Of a stretch of DNA of 45,523 bases, positions 31,450-42,372 are shown piece by piece. Origin of the DNA: Oscillospiraceae bacterium (lineage in GTDB: Bacteria; Bacillota; Clostridia; Oscillospirales; Oscillospiraceae). The stretch spans positions 1 to 45,523 of the forward strand of contig JAFYHU010000065.1 of the NCBI GenBank assembly GCA_017538965.1, read 5' to 3'. The number at the start of each line of letters is the position of its first letter. The first letter of the stretch is position 1. The translations under genes and the position numbers were made by a program. The notes under the pieces were generated by a model. The model searched no databases and was not told the origin of the DNA. It saw nothing but the letters and a program-made list of their open reading frames with translations.

Positions 31450-31491
31450 GAGAAGAGAGAAGAGAGAAGAGAGTTGAGAGTTGAGAGTTGA
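31450..31491 (+). repeat. Six 7-bp tandem units after argC
   Basis: Three GAGAAGA units then three GAGTTGA units, starting 7 bp after the argC stop and running into a palindromic element. Similar arrays lie after argB and carB-dapF. Confidence 0.85.
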
Positions 31492-31504
31492 GCGGGGCGC
31501 TCCC

Positions 31505-31700
31505 CGGAAGGGTGTACCGTTTCGCGGCCAGGGAAGCGATTGCCCCTGACGAACCGTTTGCTGCCGCGAATGGATTATAAGTGTGGAATTATGCGGCTGT
31601 GTCGAAGGTGCTGGCAAGATTTTGAACCTACCCCTATAAAGCGCGGAGCAGTGGTTTTGAGCGAGGGAAAACGTTCCCTGACGCGCAAATGCAGAAAGCC
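31505..31700 (-). repeat. Palindromic repeat element between argC and argJ (modules A, D, B reversed)
   Basis: Module A lies in reverse orientation at 31519-31571 (GTTTCGCGGCCAGGGAAG to GCTGCCGCGAAT). Module D follows (31571-31640, GGATTATAAGTGTGG, AAGGTGCTGGCAAG). A diverged reverse module B comes next (about 31637-31697, AAAGCGCGGAG to ACGCGCAAATGCAG). The rest of the gap before argJ is an AT-rich leader with no gene. Confidence 0.75.
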
Positions 31701-32973: not shown

Positions 32974-33840
32974 ATGGATTCCTTTACCAACAATCAGCGG
33001 GCGCAGGTGCTGACCGAAGCCCTGCCCTATATCCGGAGCTACAACGGGAAAATCGTCGTCGTGAAATACGGCGGCAACGCGATGGTCAGCGAACAGCTGC
33101 GGGAGCAGGTCATGGAGGACATGGTGCTGCTGTGGCTGGTCGGCGTCAAGGTCGTGCTGGTGCACGGCGGCGGGCCGGAGATCACGGAAATGATGAATAA
33201 GCTCGGGAAGAAGCCGAAGTTCATCGACGGGCTGCGTGTGACGGACCAGGAGACCGTGGACATCGCCCAGATGGTGCTGGCCGGGAAGGTCAACAAAACG
33301 CTGGTCAAGCTGCTCGAGGTAAAAGGCGGAAAGGCCATGGGCATCTCGGGCATGGACGGCGGCCTGATCCAGGCGCAGATGAGAAACCCGGATCTGGGTT
33401 TTGTCGGCAGCATCACAGGAGTGAACATCGAGCCGGTGATGGATCTGCTGGAGAAGGGATATATCCCGGTGATCTCGACCCTCGGCTGCGACAGGGAAGG
33501 GAACACCTACAACATCAACGGCGATACGGCTGCGGCCTGCATCGCGGGAGCGCTGCATGCCGAGAGACTGATCATGATGACGGATATCGCGGGGGTGCTG
33601 CGCGACAAGAATGACCCGACGACGCTGATCGGAGAGATGACGATCTCGGAGGCGGTGAAGCTGTTTGAGGAGGATGTGATCGCGGGCGGAATGATCCCGA
33701 AGGTGGAATGCTGCATCGACGCCATCCACCGCGGGGTGGAACGCGTAATCATCATGGACGGGAGAGTGCCGCACTCGATCCTGATGGAGATCCTGACCGA
33801 CGAAGGCGCAGGAACGATGGTGACGGGAGACCCGGAGTGA
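32974..33840 (+). CDS. argB: Acetylglutamate kinase
   Basis: 288 residues. Phosphorylates N-acetylglutamate, usually the arginine-inhibited step. The signatures IVVVKYGGNAM, VLVHGGGPEI, GLRVTDQETVD and the ATP-site MTDIAGVL are intact. The N-terminal helix (NNQRAQVLTEALPYIRSY) resembles that of arginine-sensitive ArgB. It starts 1 nt after argJ. Its TGA is followed at once by GAGTTGA-type repeats. Confidence 0.97.
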   Translation: MDSFTNNQRAQVLTEALPYIRSYNGKIVVVKYGGNAMVSEQLREQVMEDMVLLWLVGVKVVLVHGGGPEITEMMNKLGKKPKFIDGLRVTDQETVDIAQMVLAGKVNKTLVKLLEVKGGKAMGISGMDGGLIQAQMRNPDLGFVGSITGVNIEPVMDLLEKGYIPVISTLGCDREGNTYNINGDTAAACIAGALHAERLIMMTDIAGVLRDKNDPTTLIGEMTISEAVKLFEEDVIAGGMIPKVECCIDAIHRGVERVIIMDGRVPHSILMEILTDEGAGTMVTGDPE

Positions 33841-33890
33841 GAGTTGAGAGTGGAGAGTTGAGAGTTGAGAGACGGAGTTGAGAGACTGAG
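33841..33890 (+). repeat. Heptamer tandem repeats after argB
   Basis: Units of GAGTTGA and GAGTGGA (four clear units, then degenerate ones), beginning at the base after the argB stop codon and leading into a palindromic element. Confidence 0.8.
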
Positions 33891-34301: not shown

Positions 34302-35465
34302 ATGTCGGAACTGAAGAATATTGACAAAAGCTATGTGGCGAATACCTATGCCCGGTTTCCGATCGAAGTGATTTCGGGAAAGGGCTCGCTCGTTTATGAC
34401 GACACGGGGAAGGAATACATCGACATGGGCAGCGGCATCGGCGTGACTGCTTTCGGCATTGCGGACGATGTCTGGGTCGCGGCCGTGGAAAAGCAGCTGG
34501 GAAAGCTGCAGCACATGTCGAACCTGTACTATACCGAGCCCTGCGCCCTGCTCGCAAAACTCCTGTGCGAGAAGAGCGGCATGAAAAAGGCCTTCTTCTG
34601 CAACTCGGGCGCCGAGGCCAACGAGGGCGCCATCAAGACGGCGCGCAGGTATGCCGCCGAGAAGAAGGGCCCGGAGTATTATACGATCGTGACGCTTGAG
34701 AACAGCTTTCACGGGCGGACGATCAGCACCCTGGCCGCGACCGGACAGGAGCATTATCACGAGCTGTTCCAGCCCCTGACCCCGGGCTTCGTCCATGCCC
34801 CGGCCAACGATCTCGAGGCAGTCAAAAAGGCAGCCCTCGACAACAAGGCGGCGGCGGTCATGATCGAATGCGTGCAGGGAGAGGGCGGCGTCATCCCTCT
34901 GGAGAAGGACTTCGTGCTGGGCCTTGCGGACTTCTGCGAGAAGGAGGATATCCTGTTGCTCGTCGACGAGGTGCAGACCGGAAACGGACGCACCGGCGCA
35001 CTGTATGCCTTTATGAACTTCGGCATTCGTCCGGATGTGGTCTCGACGGCAAAGGGCCTGGGCGGCGGTCTGCCCCTGGGCGCGGTGCTCTTCGGGGAGA
35101 AAACCGAGTTCACGCTGAAAGCCGGCGAGCATGCCTCAACCTTCGGCGGAAATCCGGTCTGCTGTGCAGGCGCGATCAGCGTGCTCGAGCGGATGGATGA
35201 AAAACTGATGGCGGAAGTAAAGGAAAAGAGCGCGTATGTATTTCAGGCGCTGGAGGGAGCACCGGGCGTTGAGGGCGTCAGCGGCATGGGCCTGATGATC
35301 GGCATCAAGACCGTGAAGCCTGCCGGGGATGTCGTAAAGGCCTGCATGGAAAACGGCGTTCTCTGCCTGACGGCGAAGGACAAGGTGCGGCTGCTGCCGG
35401 CGCTGAATATCCCGATGCCGCTGCTGGAGAAGGCGATCGAAGTGATCAAGGGAGCATGCGTATGA
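34302..35465 (+). CDS. argD: Acetylornithine aminotransferase
   Basis: 387 residues. A class III PLP aminotransferase that makes acetylornithine; such enzymes can also serve the DAP pathway. [55 protein letters not shown] and [14 protein letters not shown], with the PLP-binding Lys251, are all present. GAGAGGA precedes the ATG. Its stop overlaps argF by 4 nt. Confidence 0.97.
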
Positions 35466-36445
35466 ATCTACACGGAAAAAATTTTCTGAAACTGTTGGAC
35501 TTCAGCCCGGAGGAAATCGCCGGGCTGTTGGATCTTGCGGCGGATCTGAAGGCAAAAAAGAAAAACAGCATCCCGCACCGGATGCACGAAGGAAAAAACG
35601 TCGCGCTGATTTTCGAGAAGACCAGCACCCGCACGCGCTGCAGCTTCGAAGTGGCGGCGGCGGATCTGGGCATGCATGCGGTCTATCTGGACCCGAAGGC
35701 TTCTCAGCTGGGGAAGAAGGAGAGCATCGCCGATACGGCAAGGGTGCTGGGACGGATGTTCGACGGGATCGAATACCGCGGCTTTGAACAGGCCAGGGTT
35801 GAAAAGCTTGCGGCCTATGCGGGCGTTCCGGTCTGGAACGGTCTGACGAACGAATTCCACCCGACCCAGATTCTGGCGGACTTTCTGACCATCCGCGAAC
35901 ATTTCGGCGAACTGAAGGGAAAGAAACTGGTCTACCTGGGAGATGCGCGCTACAACATGGGCAACTCCCTGATGGTCGGCAGTGCGAAGATGGGTCTGCA
36001 GTTCACGGCCTGCGCGCCGGAGAAGTACTTTCCGAACGCGGAGCTGATACGGGAATGCCGGGAGATTGCGGCGCAGACCGGCGCTGTGCTGAAGTTTGAG
36101 ACCGACCCACTGCAGGCCGTGCAGGGGGCGGATGTGCTGTATACGGATATCTGGGTATCGATGGGCGAGCCGGAAGAGGTCTGGGCGGAGCGTATCGCAG
36201 ATCTGCAGCCCTATCAGGTGAACGCAAAGCTGATGGAGGCGGCGGGAGCGCAGAGCCGCTTCATGCACTGCCTGCCGGCCTACCACGACCTGGAGACGGA
36301 AAACGGGATGGAAGCCTATGAGCGCTTCGGACTGGACGCGCTGGAAGTGACGAACGAAGTGTTCGAAAGCGCGCAGTCGATTGTCTTTGACGAGGCGGAA
36401 AACCGCATGCATACCATCAAGGCCGTGATGGCCGCAACGCTGTAG
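35462..36445 (+). CDS. argF: Ornithine carbamoyltransferase
   Basis: 327 residues from the ATG at 35462, with AAGGGAG 8 nt upstream; an ATG 6 nt earlier is too close to that site. Forms citrulline from ornithine and carbamoyl phosphate. The carbamoyl-phosphate motif FEKTSTRTR and the ornithine-side motif MHCLPA are intact. [19 protein letters not shown] and [14 protein letters not shown] also match. Overlaps argD by ATGA. Confidence 0.97.
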
Positions 36446-36461
36446 ATAATTCCGCTCCCAA

Positions 36462-36746
36462 TCAGGCTATACCGTTTCGCGGCCAGGGAAAGAACAGCCC
36501 CTGACCAGCCGGTTGCTGCCGCGATTCCTTACTTTGTAGGGAGGTATCCCCGATGGGAAGCCCAGCGAAGCGGGTTTCCATCGGAGAGCGACGATCAGCG
36601 GAATGGGCGAGCTTTCCCGACGCTTCGGGGAAGCGAGACGATATGGAGCTTGAGAGGAGCCAGCGCGGCGGGAAAGGTCGGAGCGAGGAGAAACATCATC
36701 TTCCGCGCAATTGCAGGAAGCTGAGATCGGGAATGAACAAAGCGTT
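36462..36746 (-). repeat. Palindromic repeat element upstream of carA (modules A, C, B)
   Basis: Reversed module A at 36474-36525, module C at about 36540-36668 and reversed module B to about 36745. It is the near-perfect reverse complement of the element inside carA (37310-37580). Across the C part (36549-36670) I see about one mismatch. It fills the gap between argF and carA. Confidence 0.85.
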
Positions 36747-36786: not shown

Positions 36787-38163
36787 ATGAACGCGTATCT
36801 TGTGCTGGAAAACGGAATGATCTTCGAAGGCCGGGCCATCGGATATTGGCCGGGCCTTTCGGACAATGGCGGTTCTGTCGGAGAACTGGTGTTCACGACC
36901 GGGATGACGGGATATCTGGAGACGCTGACGGACCCGAGCTATGCCGGGCAGATCATCATGCAGACCTTCCCGATGATCGGCAATTACGGTGTGATTCCGG
37001 CCGATTTTGAAGGAAAATGCTTTGCGAAAGGCTATGTGGTGCGGGAACTCTGCGACGCGCCGTCGAATTTCCGCAGCGAAGGCAGACTGGACGACTTTCT
37101 GAAGCAGCAGCGCATCCCGGGCATCTGCGGCGTGGATACGCGCGCGCTGACCCGGCTGATCCGGGAAAACGGCGTGATGAACGCCTGCCTGTGCGCAGAC
37201 CTGCCGACGCAAAGCGCCGACATTTCTGTGATGCTGGAAGAGATCAAAGCATATAAGGTCGAAAATGTGGTGGCGGAGGTCAGCACGAAAGAAATATTGG
37301 AGTTTGCCGCAGGGAGCCCGATCGAAGCTTCCTGCAATTGCGCGGAAGATACAGTTGCTCCTCGCACGGAAGTTTCCCCGCCGCGCTGGCTCCTCTCAAG
37401 CTCCATATCATCTCGCTTCCCCGAAGCGTCGGGAAAGCTCGCCCATTCCGCTGATCGTCGCTCTCCGATGGAAACCCGCTTCGCTGGGCTTCCCATCGGG
37501 GATGCCTCCCAACAAAGTAAAGAATCGCGGCAGCAGGAGGTCGGAGAGGGGCAGCAGCTTCCCTGGCCGCGAAACGGGGAAAGCTGCGTGGGAGCGGGGA
37601 ATCCTCTTCATGTTGTACTCATAGACTATGGGGCGAAGAGGAATATCATCCGCAGTCTCACGGAGCGCGGGTGCCGCGTGACCGTGGTGCCGCATGACAC
37701 CCCGGCGGAGAAGATCCTGGCGATGCAGCCGGACGGCGTAATGCTCTCCAACGGACCGGGAGACCCGGCGGAGAACGTCTTTGAAGTCGAGCAGATCGCG
37801 CAGCTTGTCGGCAAACTGCCCGTCTTCGGCATCTGCCTCGGCCATCAGCTGACGGCGCTGGCCATGGGCGGGAAGACCTATAAGCTCAAGTACGGACACC
37901 GCGGCGCCAACCAGCCGGTGACGGACGGAAAACGGACCTGGATCACAACGCAGAATCACGGCTATACCGTGGACTCCGACAGCATGGCGGGCATCGCTTC
38001 CCTCAGCTTCCGCAATGCCAACGACTTCAGCTGCGAGGGACTGGACTATCCGGGAAAGCGCTGCTTCACGGTCCAGTTTCACCCGGAAGCCTGCGCGGGA
38101 CCCCGCGATACCGGCTTCCTGTTCGACCGGTTCCTGCGCATGATGCGGGGAGAGGAGGGCTGA
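36787..38163 (+). CDS. carA: Carbamoyl-phosphate synthase small subunit with in-frame repeat insertion
   Basis: 458 residues, about 90 more than the usual 360-380. CarA hydrolyses glutamine and channels ammonia to CarB. The N-terminal domain (1-174) is normal: LENGMIFEGRAIGYWPG, FTTGMTGYLETLTDPSYAGQ, GICGVDTRALTRLIRE. Residues about 175-266 come from a genome repeat inserted in frame with no stop. The class I glutaminase domain (from NPLHVVLIDYGAKRN) is intact, with Cys350 in FGICLGHQ and the HPE motif near 437. The insertion lies at the domain junction, a place where extra residues may be tolerated. carB begins 1 nt after the stop. AAGGA precedes the ATG. Confidence 0.95.
   Translation: MNAYLVLENGMIFEGRAIGYWPGLSDNGGSVGELVFTTGMTGYLETLTDPSYAGQIIMQTFPMIGNYGVIPADFEGKCFAKGYVVRELCDAPSNFRSEGRLDDFLKQQRIPGICGVDTRALTRLIRENGVMNACLCADLPTQSADISVMLEEIKAYKVENVVAEVSTKEILEFAAGSPIEASCNCAEDTVAPRTEVSPPRWLLSSSISSRFPEASGKLAHSADRRSPMETRFAGLPIGDASQQSKESRQQEVGEGQQLPWPRNGESCVGAGNPLHVVLIDYGAKRNIIRSLTERGCRVTVVPHDTPAEKILAMQPDGVMLSNGPGDPAENVFEVEQIAQLVGKLPVFGICLGHQLTALAMGGKTYKLKYGHRGANQPVTDGKRTWITTQNHGYTVDSDSMAGIASLSFRNANDFSCEGLDYPGKRCFTVQFHPEACAGPRDTGFLFDRFLRMMRGEEG
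37310..37580 (+). repeat. Repeat element B-C-A inserted in frame inside carA
   Basis: Module B (about 37313-37393, CCCGATCGAAGCTTCCTGCA to CCGCCGCGCTGG), reversed module C (37392-37506, GCTCCATATCATCTCGCTTC, ending CCCATCGGGGAT) and module A (37523-37575, TCGCGGCAGCAGG to CCCTGGCCGCGAAAC). The coding frame runs through all three modules without a stop. The same modules occur outside genes elsewhere in the window. Confidence 0.92.
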
Positions 38164-38164
38164 G

Positions 38165-41100
38165 ATGCCAAGGGACAACAGCATTCAGAAAGTTCTCGTA
38201 ATCGGCTCCGGCCCGATCGTCATCGGGCAGGCGGCCGAGTTCGACTATGCCGGGGCCCAGGCGTGCCGGATTCTGCGGCAGGAGGGGATCCGAACCGTTC
38301 TCGTCAACTCCAACCCCGCCACCATCATGACCGACAAGAAGCTTGCAGATGCGATCTATCTGGAGCCCCTGACAGAGGAAACCCTGCGGCGCATCATCGA
38401 GAAGGAGCGCCCGGACGGGCTGCTGGCCGGCCTCGGCGGGCAGACGGGTCTGACGCTTGCGATGCTGCTGAGCCGGGACGGAACCCTGGAAAAGTACGGC
38501 GTGCGCCTGCTGGGCTCGAACCTGGAGAGCATCGAGCGGGCCGAGGACCGGGAGCGCTTCCGGAAGACGCTGGAAGAGATGGGACAGCCCGTCATTCCTT
38601 CGGCCACGGCCGTGACCGTCCCGGAGGCTCTTGCCATCGCGGAGGAGATCGGCTATCCGGTCATCATCCGGCCGGCCTATACCCTGGGCGGCACGGGCGG
38701 CGGCATCGCCGGAAATCCGGAAGAACTCGCGGGGATTGCCGGAACCGGACTGGATCTCTCGCCGATCAGCCAGGTGCTGGTTGAAAAGTGCATCTCGGGC
38801 TGGAAGGAAATCGAATTCGAGACCATGCGGGACGCCGCAGGCAACGTCATCGCGGTCTGCTCGATGGAAAACATCGACCCGGTCGGCATCCACACGGGAG
38901 ACTCGATCGTCGTTGCGCCGGCGCTGACGCTGGCGGACCGGGAATACCAGATGCTGCGCTCGGCGGCTCTGGATATCATCACCGCCCTCGGCATCGTCGG
39001 CGGCTGCAACTGCCAGTTCGCGCTGAACCCCGACAGCTTTGAATACGCCGTCATCGAGGTCAATCCGCGCGTCTCACGCTCGTCGGCGCTGGCTTCGAAG
39101 GCGACCGGCTATCCGATCGCGAAGATCAGCACGAAACTCGCGCTGGGCTACACCCTGGACGAGATCAAAAACGACATCACCGGCAAGACCTGTGCCTGCT
39201 TTGAACCGGCGCTGGACTATGTCGTGGTGAAGTTCCCCAAATGGCCCTTTGACAAGTTCCCGCATGCCAGCCGCCGCCTCGGCACCCAGATGAAAGCGAC
39301 GGGCGAAGTGATGGCCATCGCGCCGAGCTTCGAGATGGCTCTGATGAAGGCGGTCCGCGGCGCGGAAATCTCGATGGAGACCTTAAATGCGCAAAAGACG
39401 GAGAACCGTCCCCTGTCTGTTTCGGATCTGACAGCGCAGGACGATCACAGGATCTTCACGGTCTTCGCGGCACTGAAGCAGGGCATGACGGTCGACGAAA
39501 TCCATGAGATCACCCGCATCGACCGCTTCTTCATCGAGAAGCTGAAGGGCATGGCGGTGTTCGAAGAGGAGATCGCCGGGAAGACATTGACGGAAGCGCA
39601 ATACCGGAAGGCGAAACAGCTGGGCTATACGGACAGGGGCCTGCGGGAAGTGCTCGGAGCGGAAATTCCGGAAGGACTGACGGAGCCTTTCATTTACAAG
39701 ATGGTCGACACCTGCGCGGCGGAATTCGACGCGCAGACGCCGTATTTCTATTCGGCCTGCGAAGAGGGGAAAATGAAACGAGGAACCGTCCCCTGTTTCA
39801 GCTGCGAGGCAAGGAGCTTTGAGCGCAGCGGGAAGCCGGTCGTGATGGTGCTCGGATCCGGACCTATCCGGATCGGGCAGGGCATTGAATTCGACTACAG
39901 CTCGGTGCACTGCGTCTGGACCCTGCGCGAGATGGGCTATGACGTGGTCATCGTCAACAACAACCCCGAGACGGTCTCGACCGACTATGACACGGCGGAC
40001 CGGCTGTACTTCGAGCCGCTCTGTCCCGAAGACGTGTGGAACATCATTCAGGTGGAAAAACCCATCGGGGTGGTGGTTGCCTTCGGCGGGCAGACGGCCA
40101 TCAAGCTGACCAAATTCCTGTCGGAGAAGGGCGTCGCGATTCTCGGAACCTCCGCCGACGGCATCGACATCGCCGAAGACAGGGCGCGCTTTGACGCGCT
40201 GCTCGAGCGCTTCGGCATCCGCCGGCCGCGCGGGCACGGCGTCAGCAGCCTGGAGGAGGCCGTCCGGGCGGCGGAGGAGCTGGGCTATCCGGTCCTGCTG
40301 CGTCCCAGCTACGTGATCGGCGGACAGGGCATGTGCATCTCCCGCGACCGGGAGACCACCGAGCGCTACATGCAGGGCATTCTCTCCGGCGGCATCGAAA
40401 ACCCGGTGCTGGTCGACAAGTACATGCCCGGCATCGAACTGGAGGTCGACGTGATCTCGGACGGGGAGGACGTGCTGATCCCGGGCATCATGGAACACAT
40501 CGAGCGCGCCGGGGTGCACAGCGGCGACTCCATCGCGGTCTATCCCCCCTACAACCTCAACGACAAGTTCCTGCAGCGGATCTGCGAGGTGTCCGAAAAA
40601 CTGACTCTGGCGCTGGGAACCAGGGGCCTGGTCAACATCCAGTACCTGATCTACGGCGACGAGCTGTACGTGATCGAGGTCAACCCCCGCGCATCGCGGA
40701 CGGTCCCCTATATTTCCAAGGTCACAAATGTCAATATGGTGGATATCGCGGCGCACGTCATGCTGGGCGAAAAGCTGCGGGATCTGGGCTGCGGCACCGG
40801 ACTGAAGGCGACGCCGCCCTACTACACGGTCAAGGTACCGGTCTTTTCATTTGAAAAACTGAACGACGCCAACTCCATCCTCGGCCCGGAGATGAAGTCG
40901 ACCGGCGAGGTGCTCGGCATCGGACGGAGCCTGGCGGAGGCCATGTTCAAGGGACTGACGGCCGCCGGATTCCGGATCCCCGGACCGGGACAGGGCGTCC
41001 TGCTCAGCGTGGAAACGGCCGACTATCCCGACATCCTCACGCTCGCGAGGCGCTTTCACGGCCTCGGCCTGCAGCTCTATGCCACCGAGGGAACGGCGGC

Positions 41101-42220
41101 CGCCATCCGCGAGGCCGGGCTTCCGGTGGAGAGCTTTGATCCGGCGATGCTCCTCAGCGCTGCGCCGGAAACGGTGCCCGTCAGCCTCATCGTCTATACC
41201 GGCGCCGTCAAGGACGGAACCATGGGCGACTACATCGCCCTGCACCGGAGGGCCATGCAGCTTGGCATTCCCTGCCTGACCTCCACCGACACGGCCAATG
41301 CGCTTGCCGACAGCATCGCGGGACGCTATCACGAGTCGAACACGGAGCTGGTCGACCTCAACCGGATGCGGCGCTGGCGGCGGACCGTTCCCTTCACCAA
41401 GATGCAGGGCTGCGGGGACGACTATATCTTTATCGAGAACTTCGACGGCTCCCTTTCCTGTCCGGAATCACTCTGCGTTTCCCTCTGCCGGGTGCACACC
41501 GGCATCGGGGCGGACGGCATCGTGCTTCTGGAGACATCCACATGCGCCGACGTACGCATGCGGAGCTTCAACCGCGACGGCAGCGAAGGGAAAATGGCCG
41601 GGAACAACCTGCGCTGCGTGGCCAAGTATCTCTATGACAGGGCTTATATCCGCACGGAGACGATGACGGTAGAGACGGCGGGCGGCATCCGGAAGCTGCG
41701 CCTCTACTGCCGGGACGGCAAGGTCAGCTCGGTCACGGTTGCAATGGGAAGGGCCTCGTTCGACCCGGAAGAGATTCCGGTACGGACCGAAAAACAGCGC
41801 CTTGTTGACAGCGAGGTCTTCATCGCGGGACGCAGCTGGAAGGTCAGCTGTCTCTCCGTCGGAAACCCCCACTGCGTGACCTTCGTATCAAACCCCGACA
41901 TCCTCAATCTTGAGGAGATCGGCCCGCAGTTTGAACATGATCCGATGTTCCCCGAGCGCGTCAACACGGAGTTTGTCCGTGTCGTGAGCCGGACCGCGCT
42001 GCGCATGCGCGTCTGGGAGCGCGGCAGCGGGGAGACCCCTGCCTGCGGCACCGGGGCCTGTGCGGCCGTTGCGGCGGCCGTGGAAAACGGACTCTGCGAC
42101 CCGGACACCGATATCCGGGTAACGCTGCCGGGCGGCGACCTGATCGTGCGCCTGAGCGGCGGGGAAATCTTCCTCACCGGCGGTGCCGAAACCGTCTTCA
42201 CCGGAAGCTTTGAATACTGA
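38165..42220 (+). CDS. carB: Carbamoyl-phosphate synthase large subunit fused to a DapF-like domain
   Basis: 1351 residues; CarB alone is about 1070. Residues 1-1070 hold both ATP-grasp halves (VIGSGPIVIGQAAEFDYAG; VLGSGPIRIGQGIEFDYSS; NPRVSRSSALASKATGYPIA; NPRASRTVPYISKVTN) and the C-terminal methylglyoxal-synthase-like regulatory domain, ending near RYHESNTELVDLNRM. From about 1075 a diaminopimelate-epimerase fold follows without a stop: PFTKMQGCGDDYIFIE, GADGIVLLE, SFNRDGSEGKMAGNNLRCVA, GNPHCVTF, RVWERGSGETPACGTGAC. The second catalytic Cys (1294) is present; the first is Ala1145. Asp1085 replaces the conserved Asn of GNDY. The CarB part looks fully functional. Two short palindromes lie in frame within it. 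Confidence 0.95.
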   Translation: MPRDNSIQKVLVIGSGPIVIGQAAEFDYAGAQACRILRQEGIRTVLVNSNPATIMTDKKLADAIYLEPLTEETLRRIIEKERPDGLLAGLGGQTGLTLAMLLSRDGTLEKYGVRLLGSNLESIERAEDRERFRKTLEEMGQPVIPSATAVTVPEALAIAEEIGYPVIIRPAYTLGGTGGGIAGNPEELAGIAGTGLDLSPISQVLVEKCISGWKEIEFETMRDAAGNVIAVCSMENIDPVGIHTGDSIVVAPALTLADREYQMLRSAALDIITALGIVGGCNCQFALNPDSFEYAVIEVNPRVSRSSALASKATGYPIAKISTKLALGYTLDEIKNDITGKTCACFEPALDYVVVKFPKWPFDKFPHASRRLGTQMKATGEVMAIAPSFEMALMKAVRGAEISMETLNAQKTENRPLSVSDLTAQDDHRIFTVFAALKQGMTVDEIHEITRIDRFFIEKLKGMAVFEEEIAGKTLTEAQYRKAKQLGYTDRGLREVLGAEIPEGLTEPFIYKMVDTCAAEFDAQTPYFYSACEEGKMKRGTVPCFSCEARSFERSGKPVVMVLGSGPIRIGQGIEFDYSSVHCVWTLREMGYDVVIVNNNPETVSTDYDTADRLYFEPLCPEDVWNIIQVEKPIGVVVAFGGQTAIKLTKFLSEKGVAILGTSADGIDIAEDRARFDALLERFGIRRPRGHGVSSLEEAVRAAEELGYPVLLRPSYVIGGQGMCISRDRETTERYMQGILSGGIENPVLVDKYMPGIELEVDVISDGEDVLIPGIMEHIERAGVHSGDSIAVYPPYNLNDKFLQRICEVSEKLTLALGTRGLVNIQYLIYGDELYVIEVNPRASRTVPYISKVTNVNMVDIAAHVMLGEKLRDLGCGTGLKATPPYYTVKVPVFSFEKLNDANSILGPEMKSTGEVLGIGRSLAEAMFKGLTAAGFRIPGPGQGVLLSVETADYPDILTLARRFHGLGLQLYATEGTAAAIREAGLPVESFDPAMLLSAAPETVPVSLIVYTGAVKDGTMGDYIALHRRAMQLGIPCLTSTDTANALADSIAGRYHESNTELVDLNRMRRWRRTVPFTKMQGCGDDYIFIENFDGSLSCPESLCVSLCRVHTGIGADGIVLLETSTCADVRMRSFNRDGSEGKMAGNNLRCVAKYLYDRAYIRTETMTVETAGGIRKLRLYCRDGKVSSVTVAMGRASFDPEEIPVRTEKQRLVDSEVFIAGRSWKVSCLSVGNPHCVTFVSNPDILNLEEIGPQFEHDPMFPERVNTEFVRVVSRTALRMRVWERGSGETPACGTGACAAVAAAVENGLCDPDTDIRVTLPGGDLIVRLSGGEIFLTGGAETVFTGSFEY
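39393..39422 (+). repeat. Short palindromic repeat in carB, copy 1
   Basis: GACGGAGAACCGTCCCCTGT, with GACGG/CCGTC pairing, encodes the stretch around TENRPLSVS between the first ATP-grasp half and the oligomerisation domain. It shares GAACCGTCCCCTGT with copy 2. Confidence 0.55.
39775..39799 (+). repeat. Short palindromic repeat in carB, copy 2
   Basis: GAAACGAGGAACCGTCCCCT then GTTTC: ends GAAAC/GTTTC pair and the centre shares GGAACCGTCCCCTGT with copy 1. It encodes KRGTVPCF just before the second ATP-grasp half, where homologs I recall have a shorter linker. Confidence 0.6.
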
Positions 42221-42229
42221 AGAAAAGAA

Positions 42230-42372
42230 TTGAGAGTGGAGAGACGAAGGATAGAGTTAAGAGTGGAGAGTTGAGAGTGGAGAGACGGGGGAGCCCGTTA
42301 TAAGGCTTTGTGATTACGCGGGAGGGAAGCTGGGCACTCGTACCCAGGCTTTACCGTCCCGCGTTTTATTCT
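42230..42372 (+). repeat. Heptamer repeats and a B module after carB-dapF
   Basis: GAGTGGA/GAGTTGA/GAGACGG-type units (42230-42286) starting 10 bp after the stop, then a diverged module B (42287-42370, GATTACGCGGGAGGG to CCGTCCCGCGTTTTATTC). No gene. Confidence 0.75.

Follow-up and report, generated by a model that had tools for sequence, protein, structure and literature searches.

The locus described here raises the question of why a predicted CarA protein should extend to 458 residues, when 49 of the 51 loci compared from relatives encode CarA proteins of 349-381 residues, and of what such a surplus is made (among these loci L017 and L028 are shortened by contig ends and one contig stands twice, as L010 and L051, while L061 was left out). 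The gene lies in the window, by which is meant the whole stretch of 45,523 nt that was analysed, and belongs to a draft genome of 3.39 Mb in 91 contigs. Its host is an uncultured bacterium of a genus that occurs in ruminant guts. In the reading preferred here, to which a probability of about 0.85 is given, the surplus is a tolerated palindromic repeat that would be translated and would serve as a passive linker in an active CarA. The presence of a repeat in frame within carA is itself real and well supported.

The carA insert and its surroundings

carA is read as a single open reading frame, in which the surplus stretch runs from 37316/37317 to 37595/37597, i.e. about 280 bases or about 94 codons, specifying residues 177-270. 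It consists of three repeat modules, which in the naming used in this analysis follow one another as A-B-C along the coding strand, and a second set of the same modules is found in inverted orientation just upstream of the gene. The features of the region are the following:

35456..36445, plus strand: argF, the upstream neighbour, in a conserved argF-carA-carB order; 84-93% identity by BLASTP to the loci of 7 relatives
36454..36731, minus strand: a further A-B-C element in inverted orientation, lying between argF and carA; compared with the carA copy it is identical at 59/71 positions in A, 112/114 in B, 16/18 in the spacer and 54/73 in C
36787..38163, plus strand: carA, carbamoyl-phosphate synthase small subunit, a single 458-codon ORF (458 aa) with the repeat, predicted to be translated, inside
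37317..37387, plus strand: module A inside carA, 71 nt; nhmmer E 2e-18 with a model grown from this copy and E 3.9e-18 with model R2, which includes this copy
37391..37504, plus strand: module B inside carA, a palindrome-bearing unit of 113 positions, 3 nt after A; nhmmer E 7e-34
37523..37595, plus strand: module C inside carA, 73 nt; nhmmer E 1e-16, and E 6e-19 with model R1, which includes this copy
38165..42220, plus strand: carB fused to dapF, the downstream neighbour, 1351 aa; Pfam CPSase domains and PF01678

The three modules remain in frame and open between two intact domains, namely the CPSase small-chain domain (PF00988, residues 5-135, E 1.8e-47) and the class-I glutaminase domain (PF00117, residues 277-451, E 1.1e-46), and the protein retains C350, H432 and E434, presumably its glutaminase residues. 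Alignment to solved CarA chains places the insert in the interdomain linker; in chain 1t36_B, which we take to be CarA from E. coli, residue 174 aligns before the insert and residue 191 after it. The composition of the insert peptide, with 69% of its residues drawn from AGRQSPEK, is disorder-like, and the predicted product is probably a working CarA with a long linker that this composition suggests to be disordered. No other CarA match was obtained in its own genome, where only the carA on contig C58 matched at E 1e-40 (all 5 candidates scored). Most of what the preliminary description had claimed for the insert is borne out by these results: the oversized protein, the origin of the surplus from a repeat that recurs in the same genome (at least 69 matches), the frame that stays open between intact domains, and the position at the boundary of the N-terminal and glutaminase domains, on which the site in relatives, the identity of the repeat and the Pfam domains agree. 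The coordinates that it gave for the insert, 37310-37580, have been replaced by the boundaries given above.

The same arrangement could be read as a divided enzyme, in which the N-terminal and glutaminase domains are made as separate chains, for example if translation also began inside carA, towards the end of module C, where an AGGAGGT occurs in the carA copy and an in-frame GTG lies just before the glutaminase domain. Yet no start codon was seen by eye at normal spacing from this AGGAGGT, all 94 codons are open even though 24 of the 45 other C copies contain a stop in the carA frame, and there is no other pointer to a split CarA; division into two chains is therefore regarded as highly improbable.

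On both sides of carA, the gene order is shared with relatives, the identity of argF in L192 being computed over its last 100 residues, the only part present. The fusion of carB with dapF (presumably the diaminopimelate epimerase gene) in a single ORF was also found in all 7 relatives' loci compared, and a literature search returned no paper on it. Concerning the remainder of the window, the repeat had been described as lying between genes, which is correct for 5 of its 8 other clusters, as these overlap no ORF of at least 100 aa, and needs qualification for the other three: two have no overlap except with small ORFs on the opposite strand (128 and 102 aa), most of whose length lies over the repeats, and the third overlaps one of these small ORFs as well as the 5' end of an ORF of 681 aa with an uncertain start. 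Short AGAGTTGAGAGT-type repeats were seen near several repeat elements, at 31456-31505, 33840-33879 and 42226-42292 of the window.

The repeat family, its copies near genes and its known counterparts

Comparison of a 311-nt query with its own genome yielded at least 69 matches, of which the best, at E 7e-161, is the query itself (best 40 of 131 candidates scored). Modelled singly, module C gave at least 89 matches (best 150 of 2745 candidates scored) and module A at least 150 (best 150 of 2150 scored, all of them matching), some being fragments in either case. The fetched stretches and the window, together 483,028 distinct bases, hold 157 A, 88 C and 27 B modules in 140 distinct clusters, where the most frequent pair of neighbours is A followed by a C of equal direction (65), A and B are 3 nt apart in 13 of 14 A-B neighbours, and a few B modules stand beside a C while pointing the other way. 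In the fetched stretches, gaps from A to C fall into two main classes, of about 28-35 nt and about 67-71 nt, which suggests that there is one more module, optional and about 39 nt long. The consensus sequences of A, B and C fold with -22.7, -45.0 and -27.5 kcal/mol, respectively, values that stand without a shuffle control, and promoter-like sites (1 versus 0.4 in shuffles, sd 0.6) and terminator-like sites (1 versus 1.3) were also counted. In Rfam no match exceeded the threshold, the one minus-strand match reaching 21.9 bits versus the 40 needed. Beyond this genome, the 282-nt element was matched in 47 of 101 same-genus genomes, its own included, with at most 7 candidates scored per genome, and the matches listed outside its own genome lie mostly over the B part.

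The dispersal of the family agrees with its earlier designation as mobile, a property that the dispersal suggests, and no transposase could be tied to it at the Y1_Tnp loci of its own genome. The genome has four Y1_Tnp (IS200-like) matches, with an A module near the gene at two of the four loci and B or C at none; a connection is unconvincing, because A is so common that its proximity may be due to chance. The two loci with an A module nearby are L185 and L184 (G000:C64 and C69), and translations of L185 also show other repeated stretches.

Further coding regions carrying the element, for which the preliminary description had proposed a search, did not emerge, and among the 140 distinct clusters no copy other than that of carA was found to lie within a gene and in frame, a tally that covers clusters clear of contig ends and the best 150 A copies scored. 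A coding-score filter retained three clusters with both flanks (at least 90 nt) above -0.2, namely carA, L088:4687-4861 and L099:2499-2571. The second was rejected, as it sits between pyrD-like and pyrF-like ORFs in an antisense open frame with no Pfam match, and so was the third, in which the element occupies residues 40-65, upstream of a phage-portal domain at residues 92-520. Because this cut-off of -0.2 misses about 3.3% of true 150-nt coding windows, and because high scores also occur in other frames of a gene, Pfam was used to scan 20 open frames crossing elements, some of them further ones and some repeated; 16 were without a match, and in the remaining four (portal, SAICAR synthetase, Suv3 helicase and Y1_Tnp) the domain lies wholly after the element. 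At L088:2502-5598 (G000:C2) elements are situated in a run of pyrimidine genes, next to an ORF resembling pyrK and in the gap separating those that resemble pyrD and pyrF, names that we presume from the ORF sequences, and another element precedes the SAICAR synthetase (purC) gene; given 140 clusters, such neighbourhoods may have arisen by chance.

Compared with known repeats, the family is similar in layout, and in layout only, to the BOX elements of Streptococcus pneumoniae, in which an optional middle module stands between two end modules (boxA-boxB-boxC). The best-known hosts of protein-coding palindromic insertions are intracellular bacteria; the carA case comes from an uncultured clostridium-like bacterium with a draft genome of 3.4 Mb and concerns a gene of which no second copy was found. 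In the literature, in-frame fusions of MITEs are described as not unusual, with the Rickettsia palindromic elements (RPEs) as the extreme case, and a similar mechanism in other prokaryotes is called conceivable (PMC10969869); protein-coding palindromes are reported from Rickettsia, Wolbachia and Methanocaldococcus, typically in non-structured protein segments (PMC2996958); and clusters of intragenic REPs encode 43-82 residues in Thauera and R. conorii (PMC3733652). Like RPEs, which are palindromic repeats of about 150 bp present in many copies, nearly half of them in frame in genes (PMC10969869, PMC2996958), the carA family is dispersed and hairpin-capable, and it lies in frame in a housekeeping gene, the examined orthologues of which are devoid of the full element. 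The two are set apart by RPEs striking many genes (PMC10969869), whereas the carA family was found in a gene in 1 of 140 clusters, and by RPEs encoding a conserved peptide (PMC10969869), whereas copies of the carA family carry stops in the same frame. The palindromes of Wolbachia and Methanocaldococcus extend protein-coding insertions in genes to organisms other than Rickettsia (PMC2996958). The GTAG and CGTC REPs are likewise high-copy palindromes, mostly intergenic and in some cases inside ORFs (PMC3733652), but they measure 20-40 bp, and their stems comprise 8-9 bp in the CGTC and 5-13 bp in the GTAG elements (PMC3733652), in contrast to the carA units of 71, 113 and 73 nt. The string CGTCGC occurs in 16 of 25 B copies, where it is internal and not terminal, and the predicted B stem is longer than 8-9 bp. 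The words 'Firmicutes' and 'Clostridi-' are absent from the main text of the REP paper (PMC3733652). The kind of insertion is already known from Rickettsia, Wolbachia and intragenic REPs. Within the scope of the searches, the novelty lies in the repeat family, its host group and the gene concerned, as well as in the remnant in a relative and the neighbour copy with the common B tract; no earlier report of an in-frame repeat in carA was recognised among the papers listed, subscription journals being mostly outside the reach of the search.

The site in relatives and the history of the insert

The full insert is absent from CarA of all 51 relatives' loci, and it matches no CarA examined, as had been anticipated if the surplus was acquired. 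At E 1e-40, a CarA match was obtained in 47 of 102 same-genus genomes, and all 46 matches other than the window's cross the site unbroken, RUG282 included, with only the CarA of the window being split in two. The empty site predicted for relatives is accordingly found, with the exception that RUG282 retains a stub of module A. In the other 55 genomes no CarA match was obtained at this threshold. They include 19 of the 34 genomes with a completeness of at least 90% and a contamination of at most 5%, so that carA may have been lost often in the genus.

Among the seven relatives compared, RUG282 (L039, ONGJ01000013.1) stands nearest to the window, with 93% identity in ArgF and 88% in CarB versus at most 86% and 85% in the others. 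Its carA has, at the same codon, a stub of 36-39 nt corresponding to positions 1-36 or 1-39 of module A, and its linker begins with insert-like residues (GSPxxAxCxCAE). Across the 51 loci, the stub was detected at E 0.006 with an A model built from the window's genome alone. A second A model, made from 22 copies in the genome of L039 without that of its carA, detected it at E 0.0016, and the best other hit that either model gave up to E 1 was at 0.77. An identity of 26/33 to the L039 consensus occurs at one of 147,627 positions (one strand, 22 loci), which is taken to be the stub itself. As the stub and the insert of the window share the same nucleotide boundary, orientation and frame, at least module A was probably in place before the two species diverged, and the element would later have been either reduced in RUG282, which would have kept only these first nucleotides of A, or enlarged in the species of the window. 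That two species were struck separately at the same spot is an alternative, although an unlikely one: the stub is nearer to the A consensus of L039 itself (26/33) than to module A in carA of the window (23/33), while a single event is the simpler account of identical boundary, orientation and frame, and no A-module hit below E 0.7 was found in the other relatives' loci scanned.

The stub also bears on the correctness of the assembly. It is conceivable that a repeat was falsely joined into carA or that two B modules were mixed, the real gene having no insert or a different one, since the genome is a draft of 91 contigs, of which C5, C8, C26 and C6 end in or beside a B module and C64 inside A just before B, so repeats did stop the assembler, and the two B copies near carA have 93 exact bases in common, enough to confuse short-read assembly. 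Against this, the frame continues through three modules and both halves of the domain pair, distinct A and C modules flank B in each copy, which would require two independent false joins, and the separately deposited genome of RUG282 carries part of module A at the same codon, which makes an assembly error unlikely; such an artefact is regarded as very improbable.

In the preferred reading, in which a dispersed, non-coding, palindrome-rich modular repeat would have been inserted between the parts of carA coding for the N-terminal and glutaminase domains, the element of the window's species has reached its present A-B-C form of about 94 codons, and its B module would have exchanged sequence with the inverted copy upstream. 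The two copies have an exact run of 93 nt in common, and the spacer after B, variable among other full copies, is nearly common to this pair; no module was found at the argF-carA junction of 7 relatives' loci. Because B and the spacer are near-identical while A and C diverge, local gene conversion between the copies seems to have taken place; a simple duplication of the pair would not leave B and the spacer alone nearly identical, and a misassembly of the common B tract could mimic this signature. Since the signature suggests that the two copies interact, homologous recombination between them might even flip the start of carA with its N-terminal segment and act as a reversible switch of carbamoyl phosphate synthesis, a speculative and highly unlikely idea under which carA, owing to the in-frame inner copy, would be complete in one orientation and silenced in the opposite one. 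With reads from populations, the life cycle of such an insert, comprising gain, homogenisation and near-loss, becomes testable.

Reading frame, selection and function of CarA

How an insert of this kind may have survived can be judged from copies elsewhere. Among the other copies, read in the carA frame, those free of stops number 54 of 62 for A, 8 of 16 for B and 21 of 45 for C, stops being present in 8, 8 and 24, respectively, and 36 of 62, 2 of 16 and 11 of 45 are both stop-free and of a length kept modulo 3 (alignment A3 comprises 61 of the 63 full A copies). The product of the stop-free fractions is about one in five, and about one in fifty when length modulo 3 is added, and the open frame through the insert is thus only moderately unusual. 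With odds of one in fifty, frame-keeping did filter what could survive in carA, and the insert would have persisted by chance retention of the frame in a linker that tolerates extra residues.

Both flanks of CarA are under purifying selection, with dN/dS versus RUG282 of 0.11 in the N-terminal part and 0.13 in the C-terminal part, and the tolerance of the insert proposed in the preliminary description is upheld by these values. Versus outgroups, N-terminal dN/dS is 0.17-0.22 for the window and 0.13-0.16 for L039, and the somewhat higher values of the window are due to lower dS, as dN is nearly equal. CarA with the insert likely still works, judging from its sequence. The companion proposal, selection of the peptide, is not supported: measured against a consensus drawn from 7 further full copies (without L092, which lies at a contig end), the insert is changed at 7/73, 4/71 and 8/70 sites of codon positions 1, 2 and 3, and the codon score of the insert is -0.17 versus 0.15 and 0.20 in the flanks, so that by neither measure was selection on the insert peptide seen. 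A functional linker, for example one regulating CarA or pairing with the CarB-DapF fusion, would fit the kept frame and the persistence of the stub at the same site in the nearest relative; this is quite improbable in view of the lack of codon-position bias, the low codon score and the loss or absence of nearly all of the insert in RUG282. The case serves as a warning that recycled intergenic DNA can account for about 94 residues of an enzyme.

A separate observation concerns the loci L056-L060, MAGs from deer and sheep hindgut, whose CarA, 5 of the 23 aligned, are without the Cys and His that match Cys350 and His432 of the window, with G or S replacing Cys and A, C or Y replacing His; these CarA may not use glutamine.
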